From the NCBI RefSeq assembly GCF_006965485.1, contig NZ_CP041360.1, positions 6,738,501-6,802,500 of the forward strand: a stretch of 64,000 nucleotides of DNA, read 5' to 3'. The stretch comes from Spirosoma sp. KCTC 42546 (lineage in GTDB: Bacteria > Bacteroidota > Bacteroidia > Cytophagales > Spirosomataceae). The notes below the pieces were generated by a model that was not told where the DNA came from, made no database searches, and worked only from the letters and a program-made list of their open reading frames with translations. The translations under genes and the position numbers were made by a program. Of this stretch, positions 8,950 through 61,454 are shown piece by piece (the stretch's first letter is position 1; every line of letters begins with the position of its first letter).

Positions 8950-9045
8950 GATTCTGGATGCTTATGGCTACTATGGGCTCTATGGAGCTAATACGTTGTT
9001 TATTAATACACTAGAATCTACAGAGTCCAAAGCATCCACAGAATC
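8950..9045. repeat. Imperfect inverted repeat upstream of the PAS kinase
   Basis: Left arm starts GATTCTGGATGCTT near 8950; the reverse complement of the right arm (ending near 9045) reads GATTCTGTGGATGCTT, followed in both by TGG and CT-rich text. The arm is built of diverged GATTCT/GGACTCT units. It fills much of the spacer between two divergent genes and belongs to the palindrome class described in the findings. Confidence 0.55.
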
Positions 9046-9180
9046 CCTGGTAAAAGCTATTTGCAAAGTAAGCGTGTATGCGCCTGATACAGCTGATTAA
9101 AATCAGTTTTTCAGTTGATCTGTCTCAGTCTTTGGTTGGCATAAGTAAGCCAATTTTGAGACATTAACCGGATTATTGTC

Positions 9181-9492
9181 ATGACACCTCATTCTTCGTT
9201 GCTGACAGATGCACCCCAACGACCTGTGCTGTTGATATTTACATCTGCATCTCCAGCTCAACGTGTCGAAATCGACCAACTTCTGGAAAAGGCCCGATTC
9301 ATCTTAAATCCAGCCGTAAGGGTCATGCGCGTGAGTGAATCAACCCACCCCGAAGTGGTTCATAGCTTCGGATTTACGTCTTTACCCGCTTTTGCCTTAG
9401 TTCGGCAAGGGCAGGAATTATGGCGTTATTCAGGTCCGGTCGATAGTCCCGATCTTTTCAACCAAATGGAACAGACTTTTCTAAGAAACTAA
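9181..9492 (+). CDS. Thioredoxin-like fold protein without CXXC
   Basis: A 103-residue cytosolic protein. Strand PVLLIFTSASPAQR near residue 16 replaces the usual catalytic WCGPC segment, so there are no redox cysteines at the active site. The later FTSLPAFALVRQGQELWRYSG stretch keeps the thioredoxin cis-proline loop (SLPAFAL) and the following beta hairpin; length is the normal thioredoxin size. It may act as a binding or adaptor domain rather than an oxidoreductase. It is followed after 12 bases by the helical protein at 9505, so these two are probably one transcript, divergent from the HK/REC-CRP genes. Fold assignment is good; function is not shown. Confidence 0.7.
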   Translation: MTPHSSLLTDAPQRPVLLIFTSASPAQRVEIDQLLEKARFILNPAVRVMRVSESTHPEVVHSFGFTSLPAFALVRQGQELWRYSGPVDSPDLFNQMEQTFLRN

Positions 9493-9504
9493 CAACTAGC
9501 CTAT

Positions 9505-9912
9505 ATGAACCCTACAACTTCCACTACTTCGGTATCTACAACCGCCTGCCATCAGGACCACCAGCACTGGCAATATATTATTCGCCAACAGGAAGAAGAA
9601 ATTCGTCAACTTAGGTCGCTGTTACTCGAGGTAATGGAACAATACAACTGTCGTAGCCTGCGCCACGACGCCGTTGATTATTACCGAGACCTGAACCACC
9701 TCCAAACCAAGCTCAATCGGCTGCACCGCGACATGATTTGCGAAGGTGCCGATTGCCCCGCCGACATCCAGCAACTGGAGTGCACCAATACGCGCTTTGG
9801 CTTATCGGCCACTATTGAGCGCCATACTACGGCCCTTGTCAACGAATTTTCCCGGATCAAAGACGGCTGCCTTCAGTTCCTGTCGGGCATGATGAGCCTG
9901 AATCTATTGTAA
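9505..9912 (+). CDS. Helical hypothetical protein
   Basis: A 135-residue protein that is almost entirely predicted helix. Residues 20-60 form an amphipathic coiled coil (RQQEEEIRQLRSLLLEVMEQ) and residues 60-90 a second one with alternating L and R/H. Several His and Cys residues occur (ACHQDHQHW at residues 14-22, CEGADC near 88-93, ECTN near 101), which might bind a metal, but no recognised hemerythrin or zinc motif is present. It is probably co-transcribed with the thioredoxin-like gene just upstream. Its stop codon lies at the first bases of the left arm of an inverted repeat. I do not recognise the family. Confidence 0.6.
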   Translation: MNPTTSTTSVSTTACHQDHQHWQYIIRQQEEEIRQLRSLLLEVMEQYNCRSLRHDAVDYYRDLNHLQTKLNRLHRDMICEGADCPADIQQLECTNTRFGLSATIERHTTALVNEFSRIKDGCLQFLSGMMSLNLL

Positions 9913-10016
9913 GTTTGTGGTTTGACGTTCGAGGTTTGATGTTTACCGGTTCCAATTGGTCTTATTCACCAACTTGCGCCTGTAAACATCAAACCTCGCA
10001 CTAAAAACGTCAAACT
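9912..10016. repeat. Inverted repeat filling the spacer before the Crp-type gene
   Basis: Arms are about 9912-9945 and 9982-10016. The inner 16-17 bp (GAGGTTTGATGTTTAC and its complement) are perfect; the outer part matches with a few changes (AGTTTG at both ends). The left arm begins at the stop codon of the preceding gene and the right arm ends 4 bases before the ATG at 10021. The arm family (GTTCGAGGTTTGAnGTTT) is shared with the repeat at 43342-43427. Confidence 0.85.
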
Positions 10017-10020
10017 GCCT

Positions 10021-10602
10021 ATGTACGACCGTCTTCAAACCCACATTGCCCGACTGGTTGACCTTACGGAAGACGAGTTTACGTTTCTGAAAACGCTTTT
10101 CATTCCTAAAAAACTTCGCCGAAAACACTATCTCCTGCAGGAAGGGGACATCTGCAAGTACATTACATTTGTCGATAAAGGGCTTTTACGGGCTTACACC
10201 GTCGATAGCAAAGGAACTGAACACATTGTGCAATTTGCGCCTGAAGGCTGGTGGACCAGCGATATGTATAGCTTCCTGACGGGCGAACGCTCCGACTATA
10301 CCATCGAAGCCCTGGAAGATGCCGAGCTGCTCCTGCTGGATCGGGCGAACATGGAGCGAATGGTAAGTGGTGTTCCCAAAATGGAACGCTATCTGCGCAT
10401 TATGCTCCAGAATAATTACGTAGCCACGCATCGCCGGATCGTGTTATCGCTGAGCCAGTCGGCCGAAGAAAAATACACCGAATTCGTACAGCGTTACCCC
10501 GACATTGTGCAGCGCGTTCCGCAACACATGATTGCCTCCTATCTGGGCATTACGCCCGCCTTTCTCAGCCGAATCCGGGCTCGAAAACATACCAACGACT
10601 AG
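10021..10602 (+). CDS. Crp/Fnr-family transcriptional regulator
   Basis: A 193-residue regulator. Residues about 20-125 form a cNMP-binding beta roll (YLLQEGDICKYITFVDKGLLRAY, FAPEGWWTSDMYSFLTGE), and residues about 145-190 a short winged helix (VPQHMIASYLGITPAFLSRIRAR). The HTH is shortened relative to E. coli Crp, as is common for the Bacteroidota variant. No FNR-type N-terminal cysteine cluster is visible, and the cAMP contact RS motif is absent, so the ligand is unknown. Translation begins 4 bases after the end of an inverted repeat, leaving no room for a free 5' leader if the hairpin forms in the mRNA. Confidence 0.88.
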   Translation: MYDRLQTHIARLVDLTEDEFTFLKTLFIPKKLRRKHYLLQEGDICKYITFVDKGLLRAYTVDSKGTEHIVQFAPEGWWTSDMYSFLTGERSDYTIEALEDAELLLLDRANMERMVSGVPKMERYLRIMLQNNYVATHRRIVLSLSQSAEEKYTEFVQRYPDIVQRVPQHMIASYLGITPAFLSRIRARKHTND

Positions 10603-10696
10603 TTTATATTTCCATGCCTGCTAGTACGCAGGCCGTATTTTAGTAGCGATCCAATCGGTACGAAAGATATACCAAGGCCCTAGATACCAACCCTAG

Positions 10697-10729
10697 CCTA
10701 GCAGTCGGCAGGAAAATGTTATAGTTTTG
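10697..10729 (+). promoter_or_regulatory. Promoter upstream of lgt, shared with 15435-15467
   Basis: TAGTTTTG at 10722-10729 fits the Bacteroidota -7 consensus TAnnTTTG, 30 bases before the lgt ATG. The preceding 25 bases match a second site at 15435-15467 (27 of 33 identical overall, counted by eye). Confidence 0.5.
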
Positions 10730-10759
10730 CCCTAGATTAACCTATACAACCGGAAAATT

Positions 10760-11770: not shown

Positions 11771-11800
11771 TCTGTACCATAAAACCCCTTACCTCTCCTG

Positions 11801-11828
11801 GGCCTGTGGAAACACAGGCCTTATTTTT
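11801..11828 (+). terminator. Rho-independent terminator after lgt
   Basis: GGCCTGTG, GAAA tetraloop, CACAGGCC (11801-11820), followed by TTATTTTTTC. An 8-bp GC-rich stem with a U-tract on the plus strand. Confidence 0.85.
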
Positions 11829-11918
11829 TCCAGCAATCCAGGCGAGTATGAAGTAATAGGAAGTCAAATCGTACCCGATCACACAATTATGAAATCGCTG
11901 GCCTACTTAAACGCTAGT

Positions 11919-12995: not shown

Positions 12996-13348
12996 ACTAC
13001 TAGTTTGCCTGTACTTTAAAAAGGAATCCTGCTCCTGTTTTCTAACGATATAAGCCATGCCAATACTTGCAAATCTGGCTGTGACGATGGCTAAACGTAA
13101 AATGTCATTGAATGAACTGTCGGAAAAGTGGATCTCACCCTTGCCAATCCGTCGATACTGAAAACCGGAAGCCATACGATTCAGCACACTTGAGGCTATT
13201 TGTAAAGCATTGGATTGCCAGCCAGGCGATTTACTGACGTATGAGTAGCAGGCGATCTTTCTCAATTTGACTACAAATCCCCTCAATTAGACTACAGCTA
13301 ACGAATTGGATAGCCTGACCTTTGATGCATCATTAAAAGGTACAACAC
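12996..13348. other. Spacer between divergent glycosidase and SDR genes
   Basis: About 350 bases. The minus frame of the glycosidase remains open through most of it, but the translated text carries no signal peptide or family motif, and I treat it as non-coding. No clear TAnnTTTG promoter or strong hairpin was found. Confidence 0.4.
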
Positions 13349-14230: not shown

Positions 14231-14268
14231 GGAACCTGGACGCAGGAAAATTGATTGATAAAATAGCC

Positions 14269-14304
14269 AGGATAACCGATAGTCAGCCTGATATCGGTTA
14301 TCCT
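14269..14304. terminator. Hairpin between SDR and AraC genes
   Basis: Perfect 13-bp arms AGGATAACCGATA (14269-14281) and TATCGGTTATCCT (14292-14304), flanked by AAAATA on the left and GTTTTAT on the right, so it can terminate in the plus direction. Confidence 0.75.
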
Positions 14305-14321
14305 GTTTTATGTACTGAGCT

Positions 14322-16047: not shown

Positions 16048-16098
16048 AGTACAAACTAGAAGGGGGAGCTTATGAAGCTCCCCCTTCTAGTTTGTACT
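16048..16098. terminator. Perfect 24-bp hairpin
   Basis: Arms 16048-16070 and 16076-16098 are exact complements (AGTACAAACTAGAAGGGGG and its reverse complement are the outer 19 bases), and one further T-A pair leaves a 3-base loop. The stem contains a GGGGGAGCT block. No U-tract of typical length follows; it ends the small secreted-protein gene and belongs to the palindrome class. Confidence 0.85.
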
Positions 16099-16237: not shown

Positions 16238-16783
16238 ATGAAGCCAACAATCGCCATTATCGGTTTAGGAAATTCGGGTACTGAGCTGGCCATCCGACTG
16301 GTCGATGGCCCCTATCGGCTGCTGCTATTTGACCAGGACTTAGTCAACGCCCAGACCCTGGCCAGCCAGCTTTTGCAATCGACGCCCCTGGCCGATGTGG
16401 AAGCCATCAACTGCCAGGTGAATGCGTCCTGGGAGGCCGATATTATTGTGCTATCCGCCCCCGAATCATCAATGAACGCAGTTTCCGACCGAATTCGGGA
16501 AGTAGCTACCTGCAAAATTGCAATCTGCCTTACCACCTTTCTGAATGATGATGACAGTGGCCATTTGGACCCTGCAAGGATTCATATGGGCGAGGAATTG
16601 CAGCAAAAACTCCCAAATTCTAAAGTGGTTAACTTAGTCATCATGGGCGAAGAAAGGACCGATGCATTTCTCATCAGTACGCACCAGGAAGCCTTGGCTA
16701 CAGTTTCAACGCTGGTGCAGAAAGCAGGCTGGAACCCAGTTGTTGTTGAAGACTGGTCGGTAGATAATCCAAAATTTCTTTGA
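16238..16783 (+). CDS. NAD(P)-binding Rossmann protein (F420/pyrroline reductase-like)
   Basis: A 181-residue cytosolic protein. The start at 16238 (MKPTIAIIGLGNSG) begins directly with the Rossmann strand; an ATG at 16217 would add MAKRPIA. GLGNSGTELA gives the GxGxxG loop and LLLFDQD ends strand two with an acidic residue, suggesting NAD. ADIIVLSAPESS is strand four, as in the F420-dependent NADP reductase and pyrroline-carboxylate reductase families. Only the nucleotide domain is present, so the full enzyme activity is uncertain; it may be a stand-alone regulator of a redox enzyme. Its TGA stop lies within the left arm of the next inverted repeat, which separates it from the dioxygenase gene. 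Confidence 0.65.
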   Translation: MKPTIAIIGLGNSGTELAIRLVDGPYRLLLFDQDLVNAQTLASQLLQSTPLADVEAINCQVNASWEADIIVLSAPESSMNAVSDRIREVATCKIAICLTTFLNDDDSGHLDPARIHMGEELQQKLPNSKVVNLVIMGEERTDAFLISTHQEALATVSTLVQKAGWNPVVVEDWSVDNPKFL

Positions 16784-16854
16784 CAGGATTTACAGGATGA
16801 ACAGGATTAATTTACTGGGCGATTAATCCTGTTCATCCTGTAAATCCTGTCAAA
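16779..16854. repeat. Perfect 33-bp inverted repeat of the ACAGGATnn family
   Basis: Arms 16779-16811 and 16822-16854 are exact reverse complements with a 10-base loop. Each arm is three head-to-tail 9-mers of the form ACAGGATnn. The stop codon of the preceding gene (16781-16783) is inside the left arm and the right arm ends 12 bases before the next ATG (16867). Confidence 0.92.
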
Positions 16855-17748: not shown

Positions 17749-17751
17749 TGG

Positions 17752-18060
17752 GCGTGGTGCAAGGTGCTCGGGGCAGGGCCTACTCATGCTCCTTGCCCCC
17801 TGCTCATCACCGTTAACGCTCGGCTTTGCCGAGTGTTGACTAGTTATAGGGCGTCCCGCCCGATGCCTGCTCTCGCTCAGCTCAGTAATGAGTCTCAGCC
17901 CCCTTCATTGACAAAAAACGGGCCAGAGGCCCTTAAAATGATAGGCAACACTCGGCGAAGCCAAGCGTTAACGCTGATGAGCAGGGAGCATGGTGCAAGG
18001 TGCTCGGGGCAGGGCCTACAGTTGCGCATACCCTGCTCCACGCTCCTTGCCAATTAACCC
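17752..18060. repeat. Composite repeat block: nested inverted plus 32-base direct repeat
   Basis: The text GTGCAAGGTGCTCGGGGCAG occurs at about 17755-17774 and again near 17992-18011, within a direct repeat of about 32 bases (one mismatch seen). Between the copies are inverted arms of about 47-54 bases (CATGCTCC...GAGTGTTG near 17787-17836 and its complement near 17946-17991) built from GCAGGGAGCATG and GTTAACGCT units. It fills the convergent gap between ygiD and the bestrophin gene. Short open frames crossing it are low-complexity and not called. Confidence 0.75.
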
Positions 18061-18067
18061 CTGCCAA

Positions 18068-19107: not shown

Positions 19108-19346
19108 TTTTACCCCTAAATCCCCTGATTGATTTGCATTAAATAACCGCCTAAATAAAACTTGTCCTTTTGGGGCTTTCAAAACCCCCAACCCCCTGAA
19201 GGGGGCTTTTCTCCCCAGTGAACTTAGCCCCCTTCAGGGGGTTGGGGGTTTTGAAGACTAGCAAAACGGCGGTTAACTTCTTCAAGTCAATAAGGGGACT
19301 TTTTTCAAGTGCGAGCCTAGTCCCCTGAAGGGGATTGAGGGGTAAA
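19108..19346. repeat. Nested palindrome of CCCC-TGAAGGGG units
   Basis: Core perfect 30-bp arms at 19178-19207 and 19226-19255 (CCCCCAACCCCCTGAAGGGG inside each orientation). Within each arm CCCCTGAAGGGG is itself palindromic. Outer, shorter complementary pieces (TTTACCCCTAAATCCCCTGA near 19109 and its counterpart near 19325-19346; AACCGCC near 19145 and GGCGGTT near 19268) nest around the core. The block fills the spacer downstream of the SafE-like gene. Confidence 0.8.
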
Positions 19347-20515: not shown

Positions 20516-20596
20516 GGAGCAGGGTGCGCGGGGCATGGACATTAAGCAAGAAAGGAAGAATTTTTCCTCTGCTCCAAGCCCCATGCGCCCTGCTCA
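20516..20596. repeat. Imperfect inverted repeat of the GAGCAGGG family between ccoG and ccoH
   Basis: Left arm near 20516-20540 (GGAGCAGGGTGCGCGGGGCA), right arm near 20570-20596, whose reverse complement reads GAGCAGGGCGCATGGGGCTT. The ccoG stop codon lies in the right arm. Confidence 0.75.
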
Positions 20597-22054
20597 GTTT
20601 ACCGGCCCTAAAAATGTTGTTTTGACCCGATCTACCACAACGCCGTCGGAGACTACTTCGACCGTTAGTTTAGTGCTGACTTCGTGGATATTTTTTTCTG
20701 GTAACAAAATAAAAAACATTCCTTTCGTTAGTTCATCGGCAGGTGCTTTCGTAAGGGGCTGAACCATCCGCAACGTAGCACCGGGATAATCGACCCGGAA
20801 CGAGACCGGTTTTTCCTTATGCGTTTTATTAACTAGCTCAATCAGGTACAGGTTCGAAATCAGTCCCCCACCGGGTCCGCGTTCGGCTTCGCGCTGATAC
20901 AACTGACCGGGTGCGCGTAACAGGGTGGTATCCAAATCGCTACGTGTCCATAGCAGAAAGCCCCACACACTCATCAGTAACACGAGCACAACACTATAGC
21001 CCATCATCCGTCGGGTCATCCGCCAGGGTTGGCGGGTTTGAATACCCTCAAGCGAATCGTACCGGATCAGACCGCGTGGGCGATCAATTTTATCCATAAT
21101 ATCATCGCATGCATCAATACAGAGTGTACAGTTCACACACTCCATCTGAGTTCCTTTACGGATATCGATACCCGTTGGGCAAACCTGTACACAAAGCTTG
21201 CAGTCGATACAATCGCCTTTTTTGTTCAGTGAAGAATGAAGAGTTAAGAATGAAGAATAGTCCGTCTCAACCATATTCTTCATTCTTAACTCTTCATTCT
21301 TCACTAACTTTCCCCTCGGCTCTCCTCGTACATCGTCATAAGCAACCATAACTGACTGCTTATCTAACAACACACTTTGCAGGCGCCCATATGGGCAAAT
21401 GGTTGTACAAACGTATTCGCGTACGTAGGCAAATACCGTGTAGAAAACACCCGTAAACAGTAAGATAATTGACAGACCGCCAACGTGATTGGCCGGATTA
21501 TCGGTGATGATCGTCAGCAGTGCATCTTTGCCGATAATGTAGGCTAGGAACGTATTGCTGATGGCAAACGAAATCAGAAAGAAAATACTGTACTTGGCAC
21601 TTTTTTTCAGAATTTTATCCGTTGTCCAGGGTGCCGCATCGAGACGTCTTCGGGCATTCGAGTCGCCTTCAATCCATATTTCGATTTTCCGAAAAACCAT
21701 TTCCAGAAAAACCGTTTGGGGGCATGCCCAGCCACAGAATACGCGACCATATACCACCGTAAACAGGGCAATGAAAACGATAAACGCCAGTAAGCCAATG
21801 GCGACTAAATAAAAATCCTGTGGCCAGAAGGTAACACCAAAAATATTGAACTTACGCTCCAGTACATTAAACAGAAACAGCGGTTGCCCATTATAACTCA
21901 GGAATGGTCCAGAAAAAAGGGCGGCCAGAAATACCCATGCCACCGCTGTCCGCCAGCGGTAGAAGCGTCCTTTAACGACGCGGGGGTACAGCCATTGACG
22001 TTTGGCAGGAGTCGTTGTTTCTGTAACAGATGGGGCGTTGAGATGAGGTGTCAT
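20594..22054 (-). CDS. ccoG: Cytochrome c oxidase accessory protein CcoG, with palindrome-derived insert
   Basis: A 486-residue membrane protein of the CcoG/RdxA/FixG family, thought to act in copper reduction during cbb3 assembly. Five hydrophobic segments, the polyferredoxin entry VYGRVFCGWACPQTVF near residue 105, and CTTICPYGRLQ near 220 are visible. Two [4Fe-4S] motifs follow: CIDCKLCVQVCPTG and CVNCTLCIDACDD. The C-terminal beta domain (LYLIELVNKTHKEKPVSF) is complete. Odd: residues about 250-276 (KNEELRMKN...SFLTLHSSLN) are encoded by a perfect 32-bp inverted repeat inserted in frame just ahead of the first cluster motif. An inverted repeat also separates this gene from ccoP. Confidence 0.93.
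   Translation of the reverse strand: MTPHLNAPSVTETTTPAKRQWLYPRVVKGRFYRWRTAVAWVFLAALFSGPFLSYNGQPLFLFNVLERKFNIFGVTFWPQDFYLVAIGLLAFIVFIALFTVVYGRVFCGWACPQTVFLEMVFRKIEIWIEGDSNARRRLDAAPWTTDKILKKSAKYSIFFLISFAISNTFLAYIIGKDALLTIITDNPANHVGGLSIILLFTGVFYTVFAYVREYVCTTICPYGRLQSVLLDKQSVMVAYDDVRGEPRGKLVKNEELRMKNMVETDYSSFLTLHSSLNKKGDCIDCKLCVQVCPTGIDIRKGTQMECVNCTLCIDACDDIMDKIDRPRGLIRYDSLEGIQTRQPWRMTRRMMGYSVVLVLLMSVWGFLLWTRSDLDTTLLRAPGQLYQREAERGPGGGLISNLYLIELVNKTHKEKPVSFRVDYPGATLRMVQPLTKAPADELTKGMFFILLPEKNIHEVSTKLTVEVVSDGVVVDRVKTTFLGPVN
21228..21305. repeat. Perfect 32-bp inverted repeat inside the ccoG coding sequence
   Basis: Arms 21228-21259 and 21274-21305 are exact reverse complements with a 14-base loop; total 78 bases, a multiple of three. 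The arm (GTGAAGAATGAAGAGTTAAG) is of the same family as the intergenic repeat at 50822-50900 (GTGAAGAATGTAGAGTGAAA). Confidence 0.93.
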
Positions 22055-22074: not shown

Positions 22075-22164
22075 TTTTGTCATGCTGACGAAGGAAGCAC
22101 CTTACATTCTCCTTATTAGCTCGTTAGGATACTTTAGGATGCTTCCTTCGTCAGCATGACAAAA
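22075..22164. repeat. Perfect 25-bp inverted repeat between ccoP and ccoG
   Basis: Arms 22075-22099 (TTTTGTCATGCTGACGAAGG...) and 22140-22164 are exact reverse complements, with a 40-base loop. It occupies almost the whole spacer between the ccoG start (22054) and the ccoP stop (22170). Confidence 0.9.
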
Positions 22165-23195: not shown

Positions 23196-23204
23196 AGTTG
23201 TGAG

Positions 23205-23271
23205 GAGCTTGGTGCTCGGAGCGGGGTATGGAGTGGATTATTAAGCCGTGCTCCATGCCCCTTGCCCCATG
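23205..23271. repeat. Imperfect inverted repeat between ccoQ and ccoNO
   Basis: GGAGCGGGGTATGGAGTG on the left and the complement of GCTCCATGCCCCTTGCCCCA on the right; same GAGC-rich family as at 20516, 17752, 32103 and 33272. Ends at the ccoNO stop codon. Confidence 0.6.
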
Positions 23272-25686: not shown

Positions 25687-25773
25687 CGCCTTGTCGGTTA
25701 GTGGCTCAAAAGTGGGGCGATTTCGGAGGAGGAAATATGAGTTTCGTCAGGTGCCAGCCTGATTTTGATTGCC

Positions 25774-25898
25774 GATGGCGCAAGGCTCCTGCCTTGTGAC
25801 AGTTATTACCCAGCCTCTGGCTGGTAAATGAAAAACGCTATCAGCAAATTGGCCAGAGGCCGGAGAATAAAGGCACAAGGCAGGAGCCTTGCGCCATC
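25774..25898. repeat. Perfect 25-bp inverted repeat with long loop
   Basis: Arms 25774-25798 (GATGGCGCAAGGCTCCTGCC...) and 25874-25898 are exact complements. The 75-base loop contains a second, shorter pair (CCAGCCTCTGGCTGG against GGCCAGAGGCCGG). Lies in the divergent spacer between ccoS and the desaturase gene. Confidence 0.88.
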
Positions 25899-25982
25899 AG
25901 CAATAGACTGATGAAGGTCATCTAACCGCCTGATGAACGTCAGGAAGGCAAGGGATATGGTCAGTCAATTTTGCAGTCATTC

Positions 25983-26054
25983 TTGTCAGTTTATAGTCAT
26001 TCATTGTCCAGAGCTGATTGAGTTGACAGACAAAAAATGACTATAAACTGACAA
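25983..26054. repeat. Inverted repeat upstream of the desaturase
   Basis: Arms 25983-26001 (TTGTCAGTTTATAGTCATT) and 26036-26054 are exact; the flanks extend imperfectly with further GTCATT/GTCAGT units. Same GTCATT-type family as 60245-60337. Confidence 0.8.
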
Positions 26055-28307: not shown

Positions 28308-28382
28308 GCAGAATGCATAAAAGGTAAACGTTGTGCCACAGTTTTGAACCGTGGCACAACGTTTACCTTTTATGCATTCTGC
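28308..28382. repeat. Perfect 32-bp inverted repeat between katE and the MFS gene
   Basis: Arms 28308-28339 and 28351-28382 are exact complements with an 11-base loop. The stem tip (TTGTGCCACAGTTTTGAACC...) shares the core GTGCCACnGTTT/AACCGTGGCAC with the hairpin at 44243-44295. Confidence 0.93.
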
Positions 28383-33271: not shown

Positions 33272-33366
33272 GCATAGGGCAGGGAGCACGGTGCGGGGAG
33301 TATGCAAAAAGGGTTAGTACTCCGTTTCTATAGCTGGCTCCCGGCACCGCGCTCCCTGCCCTATGC
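33272..33366. repeat. Inverted repeat upstream of hemN
   Basis: Arms 33272-33300 (GCATAGGGCAGGGAGCACGG...) and 33338-33366 match with two or three changes. The right arm ends 9 bases before the hemN ATG. Confidence 0.85.
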
Positions 33367-34752: not shown

Positions 34753-34788
34753 GCAGATTTCTGTTAGCCATAGCCTCGTTAGGGGCGA

Positions 34789-34916
34789 CCTGTCAATAGC
34801 AGGCAAGTAAATACACACGTCATAATAAGCGCCGTAGGTGCGACCTGATTCAGTTCATAATAGGTCGCACCTACGGCGCTTTGAGCATAGGAGTTGGCTA
34901 TTTTACTATTGACAGG
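34789..34916. repeat. Nested inverted repeat
   Basis: Inner perfect 19-bp arms AGCGCCGTAGGTGCGACCT (34828-34846) and complement (34862-34880); outer 11-bp arms CCTGTCAATAG (34789-34799) and CTATTGACAGG (34906-34916). Confidence 0.85.
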
Positions 34917-35038
34917 CCACTCCTACGGAGTTTACATACAAGCCAAAATAATTATAAATCAGAACGACTCATGCCGTAAACCATAAAACGAGCAGCCCCT
35001 GGCTCAACGTAGTACTAAACTCATTTTGAGTCCACAAA

Positions 35039-40788: not shown

Positions 40789-41817
40789 TTACGTATGTAT
40801 CAATCGAACATCAACGGCAATGTCTTTACCCTCAGCATTCTGGCCAATGGTAAATTCAACTTCGTCGTCTACCTGCAACTCGTTGAAGTCGGTATCAACC
40901 AGGCTTGTATAGTGGAAAAACAGATTGTTGGGCGGATAGTTTACAAAACCATAACCGGTTTTCAGGCTGCGAATGGTACTTATTTTACGTCCTTCCGGGT
41001 CATCGTCTACCAAATCCAAGCCATCGGCAAGGTTGTAGTTAGGCTCGTCGGACGATGAATAGGCGGAATCATAGGCATCGCTCGCTGAGAGTCCGCTACC
41101 GAATCCATTCGCATAACTGCTGCCATTGGCAGCCACAGCTGTAAAGGTTGGGCGAGCAGCCTGTTGCTTCACAAACAGATTCTGAATGACCATATCATTT
41201 CGGCGGCTCCGGTCATCAATCAGGCCGTGCATACCAACTGGATACGATACTTCCTCCAGTAAATCCTGCGAGGTACGCGTAACCTGTTTTTCGCCTTGCT
41301 CGTTCAGGAATTCAAAATCCCAGCTCAGCACCATGATTCGGGAACCAAGCGTGTTTAGTTTACGAATAAGGGGCACATAATCTCCATCGGATGTAATGAG
41401 TACTACTACATCGAATTTCTTATACTGAGCCAATTCAAAGGCTTCGAGGGCTAACCATACATCAATCCCTTTTTCCTGCCGATAACCCTGATATGTTTTT
41501 ACGGGAAGGTAGTGCGTGACTACCCCTTCCGACATTAGAATATCATCGAATAACCGATCGTAGAAGAGCTGATTACCGCGTTGGTTAGCTTCATGGGCAT
41601 TTAATCGCCCACGAAAATAATGTGCATCTACAATCTGACACAGGCGTTCGTTGACGCCTTCCTCTTCGGCTACCTGCCGACGAATGAATGCGTGCAGGCC
41701 TGAAATACTGATACGGCTGCGACGTTCGTGAGAATAATTATAGTAGTTGCTTACGTGTAAAAAATAGTTACCGTCATAGAAAACCCCAATCCGGGTTAGT
41801 CGGGATGCTGCTGGCAT
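40789..41817 (-). CDS. NYN-domain nuclease fused to a cold-shock domain
   Basis: A 342-residue cytosolic protein. Residues about 7-185 form an NYN/LabA-like PIN-type fold with acidic residues in RIGVFYDGNYF (D15), KGIDVWLALEAF and VVVLITSDGDYVPLIRKL, the usual metal-binding set of this RNase superfamily. Residues about 215-265 are a low-complexity Ser/Ala/Asp linker (SSSDEPNYN). Residues about 275-342 form a cold-shock/OB domain (LKTGYGFVNYPPNNLFFHYTSL, VEFTIGQNAEGKDIAVDV) that binds single-stranded nucleic acid. An RNA-cleaving or RNA-handling role is inferred from both domains. It is upstream of pabB in one transcript; why is not clear. Confidence 0.85.
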   Translation of the reverse strand: MPAASRLTRIGVFYDGNYFLHVSNYYNYSHERRSRISISGLHAFIRRQVAEEEGVNERLCQIVDAHYFRGRLNAHEANQRGNQLFYDRLFDDILMSEGVVTHYLPVKTYQGYRQEKGIDVWLALEAFELAQYKKFDVVVLITSDGDYVPLIRKLNTLGSRIMVLSWDFEFLNEQGEKQVTRTSQDLLEEVSYPVGMHGLIDDRSRRNDMVIQNLFVKQQAARPTFTAVAANGSSYANGFGSGLSASDAYDSAYSSSDEPNYNLADGLDLVDDDPEGRKISTIRSLKTGYGFVNYPPNNLFFHYTSLVDTDFNELQVDDEVEFTIGQNAEGKDIAVDVRLIHT

Positions 41818-43341: not shown

Positions 43342-43427
43342 AGTTTGAAGTTTATAGTTCGAGGTTTGAAGTTGATTAGAGGGCGAATAACTTCAAACCT
43401 CGAACTGCGAACTGCGAACTTCAAACT
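43342..43427. repeat. Inverted repeat with an extra tandem unit in one arm
   Basis: Left arm 43342-43373 (AGTTTGAAGTTTATAGTTCG...) pairs with right arm 43389-43427; the right arm carries CGAACTGCGAACTGCGAACT, one more 7-base unit than the left. Same GTTCGAGGTTTGA family as 9912-10016. It starts four bases after the hisB stop. Confidence 0.85.
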
Positions 43428-43573: not shown

Positions 43574-43649
43574 AGTCAACAGTCTTTAGTTAATAGTCAA
43601 CAATAACTACTATGTATTGTCTGTTGACTATTGACTAAAGATTGTTGAG
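43574..43649. repeat. Inverted repeat between the small peptide and acyltransferase genes
   Basis: Left arm 43574-43605 (AGTCAACAGTCTTTAGTTAA...) and right arm 43614-43649 pair with few mismatches. Left begins 5 bases after one stop, right ends about 4 bases before the next ATG (43654). Confidence 0.8.
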
Positions 43650-44242: not shown

Positions 44243-44295
44243 GCTAAAAAAAAGCGGTGCCACGGTTTAGAACCGTGGCACCGCTTTTTTTTAGC
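44243..44295. terminator. Perfect 25-bp bidirectional terminator
   Basis: Arms 44243-44267 and 44271-44295 with a 3-base TAG loop; each arm ends in a run of eight A/T (GCTAAAAAAAAGCGGTGCCA...), so a U-tract follows on both strands. Placed between convergent acyltransferase and nspC genes. Its GTGCCACGGTT core is shared with the repeat at 28308-28382. Confidence 0.93.
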
Positions 44296-44307: not shown

Positions 44308-45459
44308 TTAACTCAGTCGATCTTTAAAACTCTCGTAGCCGTAGGTTTTGACCAGCTGAAATGTCTCGTTTTCCTTCCAGATACCAATAGCGGGCAAGTT
44401 CACCCCATTGAAGGTTGTGGTTTTCACCATGGTGTAATGAATCATGTCATCAAACACGAGTTTATCACCAATTTCCAGGGGTTCGTCAAATGAGTAATCA
44501 CCCATGAAATCGCCAGCGAGGCAAGTCATACCACCCAGGCGATAGGTTGGTTTGCCCGCAACAGGCTCGTGGTATGAATTGATAATCCGTGGCTTATAGG
44601 GCATTTCGAGCGTATCGGGCATATGGGCAGCAAACGACGTATCTAAAACCGCGACGTGAATTCCCTGGCTATCCAGCACATCGAGCACTTCTGATACCAG
44701 CACACCCGTTTGCCAGGCAATGGCGGAACCGGGTTCCAGAATTACATCCACATTATATTTCTGTCGGAAAGCAGTCAGCAAGCCAATCAGGTGATTCGTG
44801 TCATACCCCTCGCGGCTCATTAAATGTCCTCCTCCGAAATTAACCCACTTCGCCTGATGAAGCAGATCACTAAATCGGGCTTCGAGAGCCTCAAGCGTGC
44901 GCTCTAATGTAAATGAATCATTTTCGCAGAGGGTGTGAAAGTGAATTCCCTCCAGCCCCTCCGGTAATTGATCAGGCAGCTGATCACGCGTGGCACCCAG
45001 TCGTGAACCCGGTACGCAGGGATTATACATATCCGTGGCCACTTCGGAGTATTGCGGATTTACCCGAATGCCGCAGGAAACGCGCCCAACCGCCCGGTCC
45101 TTATATCGCTCCCACTGGCTCCAGGAATTGAAAGTCAGGTGGCTGCTACGGCTAACGACTTCATCAAAAGTAGCATCCTGATAAGCAGGTATATAGGTAT
45201 GCGCCTGCACGCCCATGTACTCGTTCACGAGTTTGATTTCGTTGAGCGAACTGGCTGTCGCACCGCTTAAATATTCACGCACCAACGGGAACGCACTATA
45301 CATGGAAAAGCCTTTCAATGCCAGAATAATGGTTACGCCAGCCGCCTTCTGCACCGAATCGAGTAAGGCAAGGTTTCGGCGTAGTTTAGCTTCTTCCAGG
45401 ATAAAGCAGGGCGACGGAATAGCAGCGTCATTGAGGTTTTGCAACAAAGTCGTATTCAT
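44308..45459 (-). CDS. nspC: Carboxynorspermidine/carboxyspermidine decarboxylase
   Basis: A 383-residue PLP enzyme of the alanine-racemase-type fold (decarboxylase group). Schiff-base lysine is K49 in IILALKGFSM; VNFGGGHLMSREGYD is the phosphate-binding glycine loop, and LAGDFMGDYSF with HTLCENDS contributes the active-site Cys and acidic residues. It decarboxylates carboxy(nor)spermidine, the last step of the alternative spermidine route. Start at 45459 (MNTTLLQNLN) overlaps the stop of the TonB-type gene by 4 bases. Its partner dehydrogenase lies 2.4 kb upstream on the same strand, with three unrelated genes between. Confidence 0.93.
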   Translation of the reverse strand: MNTTLLQNLNDAAIPSPCFILEEAKLRRNLALLDSVQKAAGVTIILALKGFSMYSAFPLVREYLSGATASSLNEIKLVNEYMGVQAHTYIPAYQDATFDEVVSRSSHLTFNSWSQWERYKDRAVGRVSCGIRVNPQYSEVATDMYNPCVPGSRLGATRDQLPDQLPEGLEGIHFHTLCENDSFTLERTLEALEARFSDLLHQAKWVNFGGGHLMSREGYDTNHLIGLLTAFRQKYNVDVILEPGSAIAWQTGVLVSEVLDVLDSQGIHVAVLDTSFAAHMPDTLEMPYKPRIINSYHEPVAGKPTYRLGGMTCLAGDFMGDYSFDEPLEIGDKLVFDDMIHYTMVKTTTFNGVNLPAIGIWKENETFQLVKTYGYESFKDRLS

Positions 45460-45935
45460 CCCGCAAAGGTAGGCAAACCTCTGTATCGTACCTTGACCTT
45501 TGGATAGTCGGTTCCGAAAAGTATAGGCAAATTGTACTTGACTCGTATTAGTCTGCCCGATTGACTTCCTGGCTCCCAACACGGCATTGCTCTAACAACC
45601 CGCATAGCCTCTTCGTCGCAGCCGTAGCCAAGGCCTTTCAGGACGGTAATATCCGTACGGGAACCATCTAGTTCAACTATGAACGAAACAAAAAGCCGGT
45701 CTTTAATCTTTGCTTTTTTAGCTTCTGGTGGATATTGAACTGATGTTTTAAGGTATTCCATTAATGCACCTATTCCACCAGGAAATTCGGGTTGCTTTTC
45801 TACAACTGTGTACACATTCATATCTCGTTCAGCCAATCGTTGGGCGAAACAGGCAACTGAGAGTAAAAACAAACCGATAGTCAGAAAGCAAGCTTTACTG
45901 ACTATCGGTTGACGCGTATATAAATTTACATGCAT
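45456..45935 (-). CDS. Secreted TonB C-terminal-domain protein
   Basis: A 159-residue protein with an N-terminal signal peptide or anchor (KACFLTIGLFLLSVACFA). The rest is a TonB C-terminal domain: EKQPEFPGGIGALMEYLKTSVQYP, then LFVSFIVELDGSRTDITVLKG, and CDEEAMRVVRAMPCWEPGSQSG, IRVKYNLPILF. Compared with true TonB it lacks the long proline-rich span, so it could be a periplasmic relative rather than an energy transducer. It shares the domain with the TonB gene upstream (46079), pointing to duplication. Its stop overlaps the nspC start. Confidence 0.8.
   Translation of the reverse strand: MHVNLYTRQPIVSKACFLTIGLFLLSVACFAQRLAERDMNVYTVVEKQPEFPGGIGALMEYLKTSVQYPPEAKKAKIKDRLFVSFIVELDGSRTDITVLKGLGYGCDEEAMRVVRAMPCWEPGSQSGRLIRVKYNLPILFGTDYPKVKVRYRGLPTFAG
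45464..45471 (-). promoter_or_regulatory. TAnnTTTG element immediately before nspC
   Basis: TACCTTTG on the minus strand, only 4 bases before the nspC ATG and inside the end of the upstream coding region; would give a leaderless mRNA. The surrounding TTTGCCTAYCTTTGCGG also precedes the carboxynorspermidine dehydrogenase gene. Confidence 0.4.
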
Positions 45936-45992: not shown

Positions 45993-46071
45993 AAGTTTCT
46001 GAAGGTCATGGTGTTGCATACGCCATATCTTGGAAATATGGCGTATGCAACACCATGACCTTCAGAAACTT
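45993..46071. repeat. Perfect 36-bp inverted repeat
   Basis: Arms 45993-46028 (AAGTTTCTGAAGGTCATGGT...) and 46036-46071 are exact reverse complements with a 7-base loop. The longest perfect stem in the window. It fills the spacer between two TonB-type genes and could end transcription or process the mRNA. Confidence 0.95.
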
Positions 46072-49310: not shown

Positions 49311-49751
49311 ATGAAATTCGTCTCTTCTTCCGGCTCTCCCAACTCATTTGAATTAGCGATTTTAGGCTACGGTAAGGCTACTAAAACCTGGCGTGACCGT
49401 AACCGGCTACAATGCCGATTTTCAACTTTCTGGGGGCAAAAGGCCGATACCCAGTCGGCTCCTCTGCAAACCTGGGAGGTCAAGCGTTTATTGGTTGGGT
49501 TACGTTCGCTCTGGACTAAAGCAACCAACCATGTTACCCTGACTTTCTCGGAACCCGGCTTGAGTATGGAGGCAAAGGCTCTATCTGATGATAACTATTG
49601 CCTGCAAATTCAGTTGGATCATTCCCTAACACCCTCCTGGCATACGTACCCTGATTTTCCAATGGAAATGGATATCCATTTAAATAGAAATCAGCTCCAG
49701 GAAGCCATTCAGGAGCTATCGGGCCAAATAGATACCTACCCCGAAAGATAA
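49311..49751 (+). CDS. Small orphan protein, WapI-immunity-like pattern
   Basis: A 146-residue cytosolic protein without signal peptide. The N-terminal half is basic (KATKTWRDRNRLQCRFS), the rest has a W/EV-x2-L-L pattern and a run of beta strands (HVTLTFSEPGLSMEA, YCLQIQLDHS) ending in a helix (NQLQEAIQELSGQI). The order strand-EPxL-strand-hydrophobic helix reminds me of the WapI type of immunity proteins against contact-dependent toxins, but similarity is weak and no toxin gene is nearby. Promoter present; single-gene unit. Confidence 0.5.
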   Translation: MKFVSSSGSPNSFELAILGYGKATKTWRDRNRLQCRFSTFWGQKADTQSAPLQTWEVKRLLVGLRSLWTKATNHVTLTFSEPGLSMEAKALSDDNYCLQIQLDHSLTPSWHTYPDFPMEMDIHLNRNQLQEAIQELSGQIDTYPER

Positions 49752-50821: not shown

Positions 50822-50900
50822 GTGAAGAATGTAGAGTGAAAAGTGAAGAATAATTTTTTATACCAGTCTTATTCTTCACTTTTCACTCTACATTCTTCAC
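50822..50900. repeat. Perfect 32-bp inverted repeat, GTGAAGAATG family
   Basis: Arms 50822-50853 (GTGAAGAATGTAGAGTGAAA...) and 50869-50900 are exact. Spans the convergent gap between the TetR stop (50813) and the aminopeptidase stop (50897). Homologous arm to the one inside ccoG. Confidence 0.95.
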
Positions 50901-54878: not shown

Positions 54879-54885
54879 CTTAATG

Positions 54886-54961
54886 GTGAAAGAGTGAATG
54901 AGTGAAAGTGCGAAAATTACTGAACAGTTTTGTTCGCTCTTTCACTCATTCGCCCTTTCAC
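54886..54961. repeat. Inverted repeat before the OmpR-type regulator
   Basis: Arms 54886-54914 (GTGAAAGAGTGAATGAGTGA...) and 54933-54961 pair with about two mismatches in 29. It starts 8 bases after one stop; the GTG start of the next gene is 12 bases beyond its end. Confidence 0.85.
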
Positions 54962-54973
54962 TCTTTTATTCTC

Positions 54974-56943: not shown

Positions 56944-56985
56944 ATCAAAACTAAACTGAAAGTCAAAAATCAATCAACGTATCGA

Positions 56986-58580: not shown

Positions 58581-58590
58581 AGTTGTCAAC

Positions 58591-59556: not shown

Positions 59557-59764
59557 AAAGTGGTAGTCGTAAACGTGTTCGTAGTGATAATTAGGTATCT
59601 ATCAGCGTGATTGAAGCAAAAACGCCCGTAAAGATACATGTTTTATATTTGACTATAGAATAGCAGATTTAATGATTAAATTGTACTTTTCCACTAACGG
59701 TCATATTGACACTTCTAGCGTTATCTGCCTGGAGGTGCCACTTTTATAGCGCCCAAACAGTTCG

Positions 59765-59772
59765 TACCTTTG
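59765..59772 (+). promoter_or_regulatory. TAnnTTTG promoter of queD
   Basis: TACCTTTG followed by CAC, 53 bases before the ATG at 59826. Confidence 0.5.
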
Positions 59773-59825
59773 CACTTTATTTTCAAATCGGCGTTTCTGG
59801 CAACCGCCCCATCTAAACCAGAAAA

Positions 59826-60242
59826 ATGGTCTATATTAACAGAATTGAGCATTTCAACGCGGCCCACCGGCTCTATAATCCGGCCTGGTCGGAAGAGCGA
59901 AACAAGGAGGTTTTTGGTCCCTGTGCCAACATAAACTGGCATGGCCATAACTTTGAATTAATTGTAACAGTCAAAGGTGAGCCTTCGCCCGACACTGGTT
60001 TTGTGATTGACCTCAAATTATTGGGCGACATCATCAAACGGGAAGTTATCGAGAAAGTGGATCATAAAAACCTGAATCTGGATGTCGATTTTATGCAGGG
60101 AAAAATGGCCAGCTGCGAAATCTTCGTCATGGAAATCTGGAAGATCCTCGAACGGGCTCTCGAACCCATTACCGATGCACACCTTCACCAGCTTCGTCTG
60201 ATTGAAACCCCGAAGAATTTTGTCGATTATTTTGGGGAGTAA
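59826..60242 (+). CDS. queD: 6-carboxytetrahydropterin synthase
   Basis: A 138-residue enzyme of the PTPS/QueD family. Zinc ligands H14 (FNAAHRL), H39 and H41 (NWHGHNFEL) are visible; the preceding C33 (GPCANINWHGH) is the catalytic cysteine. DLKLLGDIIKREV and the DHKNLNLD block complete the tunnel fold, and RLIETPKNF ends it. It makes 6-carboxytetrahydropterin for queuosine. No other queuosine genes are adjacent. An inverted repeat follows directly. Confidence 0.93.
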   Translation: MVYINRIEHFNAAHRLYNPAWSEERNKEVFGPCANINWHGHNFELIVTVKGEPSPDTGFVIDLKLLGDIIKREVIEKVDHKNLNLDVDFMQGKMASCEIFVMEIWKILERALEPITDAHLHQLRLIETPKNFVDYFGE

Positions 60243-60244
60243 TT

Positions 60245-60337
60245 ATTAATTGTCATTAGTGGTCATGAATTGTTATGAATAGCCATTTATCGTTTTTGAC
60301 AATTAATGACCACTAATGATTACTAATGACAATTAAT
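60245..60337. repeat. Inverted repeat whose right arm contains the lpxB start
   Basis: Left arm 60245-60266 (ATTAATTGTCATTAGTGGTC...) pairs with right arm 60306-60337 once a 10-base tandem unit (TTACTAATGA) present only on the right is left out. The lpxB ATG (60336-60338) is at the outer end of the right arm. Confidence 0.8.
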
Positions 60338-61454
60338 GACCTACTATTTAATTGCTGGCGAACGTTCCGGCGACCTTCACGGTGCGAATCTGATCCGGGG
60401 CATTCGTCAGTACGATCCGGCGGCAAACTGTCGGGCATATGGCGGTGAGCAAATGGAAGCTGCCGGGGCTGTGATGGTGCGTCATTATCGCGAGATGGCG
60501 TTCATGGGATTTCTGGAGGTAGTTAAAAATCTCGGTACTATTCGCCGGATATTGCACGAGTGCCAGGCTGACCTGCTTGCTCACCGACCCGACGCGCTTA
60601 TTCTGATCGACTATGCTGGTTTCAATCTTCGCATGGCGCGGTTTGCCAAACAGCACGGCATTCGGGTGTTTTACTATATCTCGCCAAAAGTCTGGGCCTG
60701 GAATCAACGTCGGGCACTGAAGATCAAAGCGAATGTAGACCGGTTATTTACAATTCTACCCTTCGAGACCGAGTTCTTCGCTACATACGATTACAAAGTC
60801 GATTATGTTGGTAATCCACTGCTCGATGCGCTGGCTGACTTCAAACCTGATCCTGCGTTTCGGGCTAAGTCAGGGTTAGGAGAACAACCCATTATTGCCC
60901 TGTTACCCGGTAGCCGCCATCAGGAAATTACGTCGATTCTGCCCATTATGCTACAGACCACCCGACAGTTTCCAGACTATCAATTTGTGGTTGGTACGGT
61001 AAGCAATCTTCCCGATAAACTGTATTCCGATTTGTTGGCCGACTACCCAACCGTGAAACAAGTCGATGATGCGGCTTACGATTTGCTTCAGGTAGCTACA
61101 GCCGCCCTCGTTACATCAGGAACGGCCACACTCGAAACGGCCCTACTGAACATCCCACAGGTGGTTTGCTACAAAACAACGGGCATAAGCTATGCTATTG
61201 CTAAACGACTCATTGCCGTACCGTTTATCTCGCTCGTCAACCTGATTGCCGACCGAGAAGTGGTAAAGGAGCTGATTCAGAACGATCTTACACCAACTCG
61301 GGCAGCCCTGGAACTGAAAGCTATTTTACCGGGCAACCCGGGTCGAACTGTGCAACTGGCTGGTTATGCAAGTGTGCAGCAAAAAATGGGCGATCCGGGC
61401 GCATCCGAACGAGCAGGCCGGTTAATGGTCGAAGCACTACAAGAGAGCATCTGA
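60336..61454 (+). CDS. lpxB: Lipid-A-disaccharide synthase
   Basis: A 372-residue glycosyltransferase (GT-B). AGERSGDLHGANL at residues 7-19 is the LpxB signature, with YYISPKVWAWNQRRALKIK near 115, the GNPLLDAL block near 160, LLPGSRHQEI near 190 and SGTATLETALLNIPQVVCYK near 265. It joins UDP-diacylglucosamine to lipid X at the inner membrane. Start is the ATG of 60336, which lies in the repeat arm; the protein N-terminus is otherwise complete. Confidence 0.95.
   Translation: MTYYLIAGERSGDLHGANLIRGIRQYDPAANCRAYGGEQMEAAGAVMVRHYREMAFMGFLEVVKNLGTIRRILHECQADLLAHRPDALILIDYAGFNLRMARFAKQHGIRVFYYISPKVWAWNQRRALKIKANVDRLFTILPFETEFFATYDYKVDYVGNPLLDALADFKPDPAFRAKSGLGEQPIIALLPGSRHQEITSILPIMLQTTRQFPDYQFVVGTVSNLPDKLYSDLLADYPTVKQVDDAAYDLLQVATAALVTSGTATLETALLNIPQVVCYKTTGISYAIAKRLIAVPFISLVNLIADREVVKELIQNDLTPTRAALELKAILPGNPGRTVQLAGYASVQQKMGDPGASERAGRLMVEALQESI

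Follow-up and report, generated by a model that had tools for sequence, protein, structure and literature searches.

Gene-end hairpins in Spirosoma with arms that are probably kept identical by arm-to-arm copying

Hairpins in Spirosoma probably persist mostly at gene ends, and their arms are probably made identical again and again by arm-to-arm copying, the likely agent being template switching. The observations that carry this reading are substitutions found on both arms of one hairpin, coding ends mirrored in the opposite arm, tips shared between hairpins with unrelated outer arms, and sites that stay occupied while their arms change. Coordinates refer to the window (the whole 64-kb stretch of DNA that was analysed) unless stated otherwise, and hairpins are given without strand except where one is named.

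In the window, 13 strong hairpins (score at least 15) were found, against none in any of 10 dinucleotide-shuffled versions; a 400-kb sample of the same genome (the source genome) contained 66, and its shuffled version 0. Composition-matched shuffling, which the initial annotation had proposed as a refuting check, thus yields no strong palindromes, and chance or base composition is rejected as the source of the hairpins. In 644 kb of the source genome, 108 hairpins were counted, and in Pedobacter, near the same gene, hairpins are approximately 15-fold rarer. A known RNA family is rejected as their identity, since an Rfam search of the window gave 0 matches above the gathering score.

The nine inverted repeats listed in the initial annotation are all present. 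Their arms are perfect at 16048 (24 nt), 16779 (33 nt), 21228 (32 nt), 22075 (25 nt), 44243 (25 nt), 45993 (36 nt) and 50822 (32 nt); at 28308 they are perfect over 32 nt or 97% identical over 36 nt, and at 25774 (start here 25768) 31-nt arms are 97% identical. All of these had been taken for spacers; the repeat at 21228 instead lies inside the ccoG/FixG frame (20594-22054). A looser scan of the window gave 24 hairpins, 23 of them outside the script-called ORFs (gene calls followed a simple longest-ORF rule); one of these 23 (45872-45910) falls within ORF 45456-45935 (TonB domain). The claim that the repeats run from a stop codon to about 15 bases before the next gene holds for some only, 4 of 23 having both gene gaps of at most 20 nt, and fails for the rest; the GTGAAGAAT family fits this placement better than the window set overall. 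Near-perfect arms had likewise been claimed: among hairpins of the source genome with arms of at least 20 nt, 42 of 74 are perfect and 32 are imperfect. Convergent spacers of this genome contain a hairpin in 31 of 73 cases (42%), tandem spacers in 49 of 225 (22%) and divergent spacers in 8 of 72 (11%). The hairpins are located at gene 3' ends, as intrinsic terminators are.

The set is of several kinds: (1) REP/REPIN elements resembling those beside RAYT genes of the source genome, (2) degenerate arrays of 7-9-nt units, written twice, inverted, and (3) a small constant tip palindrome with locus-specific outer arms. Clustering of 203 arms of at least 20 nt left 63 singletons, and a single REP family was rejected by this clustering together with family comparison. 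The earlier statements that arms differ between most loci yet form families, and that the set is not one REP family, are borne out, REP features being found in subsets only. The statement that each hairpin has its own arm is correct insofar as many differ; the hairpins at 28308, 44243 and 45993 are two-part, each with a tip core of a shared type (core1 or core2, below) and a local outer arm.

Orthologous sites were compared mainly in three relatives (G003, G008 and G032). The GTGAAGAAT-family hairpin at 50822..50900 (32-nt perfect arms) differs from its G032 ortholog by a single change present on both arms, and G008 and G003 have other arms there. The GTCATGCTGACGAAGGAAGC hairpin (22075..22164) shows an A to C change on both arms in G008. 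The GTTCGAGGTTTGA heptad hairpin (43356..43406) corresponds to the same family with paired changes in G032 and to the GTTTACGG family in G008, and hairpins related to the TAGTCAACAG-type one at 43576..43648 occur in all three relatives with paired and unpaired changes. The octad hairpin GTGAAAGA/GTGAATGA (54886..54961) is kept in G008 and G003, with a different hairpin in G032. The hairpin of ACAGGAT 9-nt units (16779..16854, perfect 33-nt arms) is imperfect in G008 and absent in G032. An imperfect GTCATT-type hairpin (60245..60337) is represented at the same site in the three relatives by an TGTATGATGTA-type hairpin; another GTCATT-type hairpin (25983..26054) has a related one in G032, and none of the type was seen in G008 and G003. 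The imperfect GTTTGACGTTCGAGGTTTGA hairpin (9912..10016) was not seen in G032 and G008. Between ccoP and ccoNO, an imperfect GGAGC-type hairpin (23200..23271) is represented by a GTGAAGAAT hairpin in G032 and G003 and by an ATAATG hairpin in G008. The site of the CCCCCAACCCCCTGAAGGGGGC hairpin (19178..19255, 30-nt perfect arms) has other hairpins in G032 and G008. A 24-nt perfect hairpin with a 3-nt loop (16048..16098) is without a family assignment. This comparison had also been proposed as a refuting check, and the spacers are not kept unchanged in relatives.

Multi-copy tip palindromes are core1 (ATACGCCATAT...), core2 (GTGCCACGGTT...) and GGCTGACGC.... In the perfect core1 hairpin at 45993..46071, locus-specific outer arms of 25 nt (45993-46017 and 46047-46071) enclose a 29-nt tip (46018-46046, ATACGCCATATCTTGGAAATATGGCGTAT), which has 18 copies in the source genome (genome counts of core1 are for exact matches, so that variants such as those of G033 are not included). 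Outer arms of 11-37 nt accompany 26 of the 28 core1 copies examined (583 bp, 0 mismatch, a figure partly built in by an arm-extension rule that stops at mismatches), and pairing immediately beyond them drops to 0.23. From one locus to the next these outer arms are unrelated (mean local score 4.67 versus 4.38 for shuffled arms). The perfect core2 hairpin at 44243..44295 has outer arms of 14 nt and the tip core GTGCCACGGTT-TAG-AACCGTGGCAC (44257-44281); at this site G003 has the same core with altered outer arms, and G008 and G032 are without such a core. The core2-type hairpin at 28308..28382 has its tip core at 28333-28357 between outer arms of 25 nt; the G032 core is almost identical, with outer arms that differ and are again mirrored. 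At 213376 of the source genome the core is retained and the arms are changed relative to G008. At 207270, core1 occupies the loop of a hairpin with an imperfect G032 counterpart (12/15, hand-counted) lacking the core.

The coupling of arms was counted in 20 orthologous same-arm hairpin pairs with 491 paired positions (some loci were entered with two or three relatives, so that the pairs are not all independent; reverse-direction rows and pairs less than 40% unchanged were excluded). There were 16 two-sided changes, 15 of them still paired and 1 unpaired, where 2.24 are expected under independent arms (P 2.4e-9). Changes on the two arms are coupled and keep the pairs, as quasipalindrome correction predicts. 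One-sided changes were 28, which exceeds the two-sided ones and indicates that correction is incomplete in these ordinary families. Loop inversion, a footprint of template switching according to the part of PMC8794818 drawn on here, was flagged in 4 ortholog pairs, one strong (G008/G003 at 50822) and three near the threshold; such footprints are present. The initial annotation had offered recent formation or arm-to-arm correction, and correction is supported by the two-sided changes and the mirrored coding ends. Arm-to-arm recombination could yield the same pattern as template switching. The closest pair of genomes is approximately 89-91% identical over longer stretches, so that single events are not datable. 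A suspected one-sided creation event at G022 43049 versus G015 was dropped from consideration, a decayed hairpin being present in the G015 sequence as well.

Turnover is high. In 49 anchored comparisons of the source genome with a relative, the arm was the same in 12, different in 14 and ambiguous in 6, and no hairpin of score 12 was found in 17, some of which still have a weak or truncated hairpin by eye. Occupancy is nevertheless conserved despite arm change: both genomes had a hairpin at 27 sites, the source genome only at 20, the relative only at 16 and neither at 89 (odds ratio 7.5; p 3.6e-7, a value that is too small because three relatives are pooled). Both comparisons cover hairpins with flanks anchorable in a relative.

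A mirrored coding end is found at one of two neighbouring core1 sites, G000:5619617 and 5620360. Core1-type hairpins occur at both sites in the source genome, G016, G014, G002 and G033 and at one of them in G010, i.e., 11 of 12 sites are occupied. All 11 stems are without mismatch and their arms differ, and the gene between the sites is 69-76% identical; these hairpins appear to be older than the species split. At G000:5619617 the left arm begins 16, 10, 16, 12 and 5 nt before the gene end in five species, and all six genomes share the conserved C-terminus of this gene (KARA[AG]LSx[LF]-stop). In each of the five genomes with the hairpin, the right arm is a mirror image of the codons of that species. 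Overlap with the coding sequence amounts to just 5 nt in G033 and to 10-16 nt in the other four.

Paired changes could alternatively reflect selection at the RNA level, the hairpins being terminators or mRNA 3'-end stabilisers with stems kept by compensatory substitution. The preference for convergent over tandem and divergent spacers agrees with this, as does the conserved occupancy of gene-end spacers, and selection for termination may be the reason why occupancy lasts. However, in tandem spacers the mismatches read on the transcribed strand comprise 38 G.T and 34 A.C, i.e., wobble pairs are not preferentially tolerated, and 5 of the 15 paired double changes are transversions, for which no single G.U step is possible. 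Moreover, the GTCAT..GACG and ACAGGAT families have the T-run first and the A-run last, which is the wrong orientation for an intrinsic terminator. The palindrome inside ccoG (20594..22054, strand -, Pfam FixG_C and Fer4_18) also speaks against such selection, since a terminator would be harmful there. This perfect palindrome of the GTGAAGAAT family (21228..21305, strand -, 32-nt arms) lies in frame in a linker that separates conserved motifs. Among 31 rows (two from one genome) the linker has 30-36 nt in 5 and is longer in 26; a palindrome of score at least 12 is present in 5, two of them perfect, and the frame is kept in 30. The palindrome type differs between species. A palindrome is thus inserted in frame in a gene, as in Rickettsia-type elements. 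Overall, RNA-level selection is an unlikely explanation of the arms.

Spread of a REP/REPIN collection by RAYT transposases, with arms alike since the copies are young, would account for a part of the set only. No transposase or reverse transcriptase was seen in the window by the initial annotation, and Pfam finds none in the 50 window ORFs scanned (the full list has 66 ORFs, many overlapping, and ORF 1-4830 was left out). The genome-wide search that it had suggested gave 5 PF01797 matches, none inside the window; RVT_1 had no match in the genome, so that a reverse-transcriptase origin is rejected. On REP elements the initial annotation was incomplete: by eye, GGAGCAGGG-type arms surround a REPIN of the family flanking the RAYT gene of locus L005 at 17787..17997, and nested REP-type inverted repeats (TAGGGGCGACCT, GCGCCGTAGGTGCGACCT) of the family beside the RAYT gene of L003 lie at 34775..34930. 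In both families the repeat flanks a RAYT gene, and some members of the set are thus ordinary REP/REPIN elements. The window also has a REP-type palindrome of GCGCAAGGCTCCTGCCTTGTG with GGCCTCTGGC in the middle (25768..25904) and a GGAGCAGGG-type hairpin (33272..33366). PF01797 matches occur in 29 of 36 Spirosoma genomes; hairpin density is 5.8-10 per 100 kb in four genomes without them and 12.9-23.3 in seven with them (the samples are not region-matched), RAYT number correlates weakly with the GTGAAGAAT pattern count (Spearman 0.36, p 0.03), and G001 has a GTAG-type REP where G022 has an ACAGGAT hairpin (by eye, a GTAG or CGTC tag at one end was noticed in one G001 hairpin only). On the other side, heptad, octad and GTTTACGG hairpins are found also in genomes without a PF01797 match, and 16 of 34 RAYT loci scanned lack a hairpin within 1.5 kb. 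Unit-type hairpins are near RAYT in L003, L242, L254 and L257, within 0.2 kb in L254 only (GTTTACGG); a core1-like hairpin lies 0.8 kb from RAYT in L005. Neither the lack of common outer arms among core1 copies nor the apparent age of the hairpins at two core1 sites fits young copies. RAYT is unnecessary for hairpin presence, the density difference and the weak correlation speaking for a partial role, and RAYT spread as the general explanation is improbable.

Whole palindromes might also be inserted repeatedly at the same permissive gene ends, each being perfect because it is young. The 17 hairpin-less and 14 different-arm comparisons among the 49 would be expected from this, and a clean replacement is seen in the closest pair (G001 versus G022, outgroup G015). 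Insertion alone, however, leaves unexplained the right arm that mirrors host codons, the core kept with changed arms (213376 versus G008) and isolated two-sided substitutions between hairpins that are identical elsewhere (50822 versus G032), and there is little likelihood that it is the whole explanation. Target duplications were looked for at empty sites, where the spacers had diverged too far for a verdict. Sequencing is known to have difficulty with palindromes, but an assembly or amplification artefact is extremely improbable, as the same core and arm design occurs in single-contig (G000, G008, G016) and many-contig (G014, G002, G003) genomes and orthologous hairpins agree across separate genomes.

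Arm-to-arm copying could proceed as follows. When a replication fork meets a hairpin, the growing strand would fold back, copy its own arm for approximately 15-40 nt and then return (template switching, quasipalindrome correction). Copying may overrun the old stem into the flank, by which a neighbouring coding end would be captured and mirrored. Multi-copy tip palindromes would move or be copied between sites with the outer arms remaining local, and heptad-type arms and REP/REPIN elements could supply the same sites. Heptad families common to unrelated loci require a dispersal step beyond template switching within a hairpin. The polymerase mechanism, the spread of tips and any benefit to the cell are inferred from the comparison of relatives, no mutation having been caught in the act. 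A more tentative and rather doubtful extension is that core1-like tips could be a minimal type of mobile DNA that lacks both a gene and fixed ends: a palindrome of 29 nt would be copied into hairpin tips at gene ends when stalled forks switch template, and would then keep rebuilding its arms from host flanks (coding ends included), with no transposase needed and the hairpin itself as the replicator.

These hairpins bear on the question of whether selection or mutation keeps long stems perfect. They include a natural control, in which one arm is fixed by protein coding and the free arm matches the codons in five species. At the sampled density, Spirosoma would carry many hundreds of natural template-switch reporters in dividing bacteria. 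A caution also follows: stem covariation need not imply a functional RNA. Among the titles and abstracts listed from the openly licensed PubMed Central literature, none describes such hairpins in Spirosoma.

Among known systems, the portions of PMC7202029 and PMC8794818 used here describe quasipalindrome-associated template-switch mutation in E. coli and the creation and maintenance of RNA hairpins by template switching, respectively. The perfecting of imperfect repeats by arm copying, two-sided changes and loop inversions are common to these accounts and to Spirosoma, which differs in its many gene-end hairpins, shared tip cores, coding-end capture and family replacement; the evidence on its hairpins is comparative and does not consist of single mutations. 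REP/REPIN elements with RAYT, as far as described in the sections of PMC3733652 and PMC6006769 considered, are similarly palindromic, intergenic and mostly downstream of genes, and part of the set belongs to them, whereas the unit-type families of Spirosoma also occur without PF01797 and core1 outer arms are locus-specific. Rickettsia palindromic elements, as mentioned in PMC3733652, are likewise palindromes in frame in genes (here ccoG), but in a different phylum, and the ccoG site has varying palindrome types; this comparison is by description only. Intergenic heptamer direct repeats, e.g., TAACTGA, are reported in the part of PMC4679880 used here for Cyanobacteria, Beggiatoaceae and Bacteroidetes. 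They share 7-nt units in spacers with the Spirosoma hairpins, in which the array, direct in that account, is instead written twice, inverted. In other Bacteroidota genera, 13 of 14 judgeable loci had no hairpin of units and 1 had a weak one (L298), the 14 remaining from 19 viewed loci after 4 off-centre ones and 1 from Spirosoma; pattern counts in 296 Bacteroidota genomes are a guide only, since arrays and hairpins are counted alike and in some of these genomes the reversed control pattern matched as well (28 times in G263). Mitochondrial coding palindromes of Nematomorpha (PMC6649704) similarly show perfect inverted repeats to be compatible with coding; both arms code there, whereas at G000:5619617 only one arm is coding and the second matches it.

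The window (G000:C1:6738501-6802500, G000 being the own genome, a single contig of 8.66 Mb) has ordinary gene content: a cbb3 oxidase cluster, catalase, a metal ATPase, two-component systems and lpxB; no tRNA was found in its 64 kb. A WapI-like immunity family protein is encoded at 49311-49751 and a protein combining NYN and cold-shock domains at 40789-41817. A protein search assigns the window to Spirosoma; the nearest named loci in ccoNO are those of S. arboris (97%) and S. telluris (95%).

The inverted repeats reported in the initial annotation exceed chance: the window holds 13 hairpins of score at least 15 and ten dinucleotide shuffles hold 0. A 400 kb sample of the own genome gave 66 hairpins versus 0 when shuffled, and 644 kb in all gave 108. 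The 5' arm of these 108 is more often the G-rich one (G>C in 68, C>G in 31, equal in 9); either strand of a palindrome displays this polarity. The ccoNO neighbourhoods of other genera served as the outside control for density, and hairpins per 100 kb amounted to 22.5 in Spirosoma (3 loci), 11.7 in Larkinella (5), 12.4 in Pontibacter (4), 5.4 in Sphingobacterium (7), 1.3 in Mucilaginibacter (11) and 1.5 in Pedobacter and near kin (39). At a score of at least 22 the figures are 13.9 for Spirosoma versus 0.1 for Pedobacter. Single loci in Rufibacter (22.6) and Hymenobacter (18.0) are also rich, so the hairpin habit is shared within Cytophagales. Spirosoma genomes lacking the REP-associated transposase gene (RAYT) have lower density, 5.8-10 (n=4), and no hairpins occur in the 50 kb of E. 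coli K-12 scanned.

Hairpins are carried by 31/73 convergent, 49/225 tandem and 8/72 divergent spacers. The proposal that many run from a stop codon almost to the next gene holds in part: many copies of the GTGAAGAAT family start or finish within about 20 nt of an adjacent stop or start codon, but window-wide both ends lie this close in just 4 of 23 hairpins.

Sites are often kept while arms are replaced. An occupied spacer tends to be occupied in the relative too: comparisons pooled over three relatives have a hairpin in both genomes in 27 cases, in the own genome alone in 20, in the relative alone in 16 and in neither in 89, an odds ratio of 7.5. Of 49 anchored hairpins compared with relatives, 12 have the same arm, 14 a different one, 6 are ambiguous and 17 have no counterpart reaching score 12, some of the last showing a weak or cut hairpin by eye. 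Across four species, site 23200-23271 carries a GGAGC hairpin, GTGAAGAAT (twice) and ATAATG. The closest pair, G001 and G022, is 89-91% identical; G022 has an ACAGGAT hairpin at a site where that of G015 is imperfect and G001 has a GTAG-type REP instead, with flanks unchanged.

Clustering of 203 arms of at least 20 nt from seven genomes yielded families and 63 singletons. The families comprise heptad/octad arrays (GTTTGAG, GGTTTAC, RTGAAGA, GTGAATGA), nonads (ACAGGAT, ACAGAG), CCCCCAACCCCC, GTCATnCnGACGAAGGA, REP/REPIN types and shared-tip hairpins. By eye, repeats at 2 of 5 own-genome RAYT loci recur in the window. The RTGAAGA pattern is present in 23/36 Spirosoma genomes and in 36/296 sampled Bacteroidota, where its reversed control also matches in some; in other genera, units lack a matching arm in 13 of the 14 loci that could be judged. 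The GTGAAGAAT pattern peaks in G185, a 4.3 Mb genome from a different family of the class, with 129 matches forward and 117 in reverse; L284, the one locus viewed there, has no hairpin of this sequence. Close relatives G008 and G003 have 1 and 49 matches, as if a genome switched its preferred arm type wholesale. Closely similar palindromes with ATTGGATGAGTTTATTCAGTGAATTAA lie 1.9 kb apart at L125:5407-5468 and 7325-7400, and one G015 palindrome clusters with them. At window 17749-18067 a REPIN is nested in a GGAGCAGGG hairpin, with the 29-nt direct repeat TGGTGCAAGGTGCTCGGGGCAGGGCCTAC on either side, perhaps a trace of insertion.

The palindrome at 21228-21305 lies within ccoG, in the linker between RGEPRG and GDC[IV]DC. 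The matched stretch is 72-84 nt in 46/46 rows from other genera. The linker proper measures 30 to 171 nt in 31 rows from Spirosoma and Larkinella, with frame kept in 30/31. Palindromes of score at least 12 occur in 5/31 rows (RTGAAGA type, two perfect); by eye, other rows show G-rich then C-rich stretches of GGAGCAGGG type. In G032 (L091) a 143-nt linker separates gene halves that are out of frame with each other, so that the gene is broken or the sequence is in error.

Changes in the two arms are coupled. Among 20 same-arm ortholog pairs (491 paired positions), 15 two-sided changes still pair (10 transitions, 5 transversions), 1 is unpaired and 28 are one-sided; arm independence predicts 2.24 two-sided changes. 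Window 50822 differs from G032 by a single A-to-C change, on both arms. Inverted loops were flagged in four ortholog pairs, strongly in one. Were RNA pairing under selection, G.T mismatches should be in excess; the transcribed strand of tandem spacers has 38 G.T, 34 A.C and 29 others, which is not an RNA signature.

A common tip, ATACGCCATA...TATGGCGTAT, joins window 45993 to own 207270 and 213376 (coordinates of a 264 kb stretch, window plus 100,000). By exact pattern, this 29-nt palindrome, core1, has 18 own-genome copies and occurs in 8/36 genomes. Examination covered 28 copies, 15 in the own genome and 13 in relatives, and in 26 of them the outer arms run for 10 nt or more without a mismatch (11-37 nt, 583 bp in total); the extension rule favours such arms, so the finding is the arm lengths and sharp ends, not zero mismatches alone. 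Pairing beyond the arms drops to 0.23, and arms are little alike between loci (4.67 versus 4.38 shuffled). GTGCCACGGTT cores look similar in this respect (8 rows), and arms from more than one family carry GGCTGACGC tips. Comparison of own 207270 with G032 suggests that a core was inserted into the loop of a pre-existing hairpin; at own 213376 versus G008 the core is retained and the arms are new.

Two core1 copies, G000:5619617 and 5620360, stand 743 bp apart with different outer arms and a loop found in no other own copy. The gene between them has orthologs in five other species (69-76%). A core1-type hairpin occupies both spacers in the own genome and four species and one of two in G010 (11/12 sites); stems lack mismatches in 11/11, in a scan that allowed them. 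The gene upstream of 5619617 has a conserved C-terminus in 6/6 species. Five of these species have a hairpin there; in them the left arm starts 16, 10, 16, 12 and 5 nt before the coding end, and the right arm matches each species' own last codons, inverted (e.g., TTA AGT AGT TTG TAG in the own genome, CTG AGC CAG TTG TAG in G014). On the simplest reading, the free arm would have tracked the coding arm after the species split. Had each species acquired its hairpin by a separate insertion that mirrored the flank as it occurred, the codons would be copied as well, but insertions would have to have struck this one pair of sites in several lineages. Within a genome the two neighbouring hairpins often have a core variant in common (the loop CTCTGAAG in the own genome, CATGT in G033, CGTAT in G002; G014 is an exception), as if copied between sites 0.7 kb apart (L330-L335).

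Rewriting of one arm from the other probably proceeds via template switching at hairpins. Template switching at hairpins is described as a mutational process in E. coli reporters (PMC7202029) and in RNA-gene histories (PMC8794818); judging by the literature searched, it is new to see the process on this scale within a single genus, extending into coding ends and linked to tip palindromes present in many copies.
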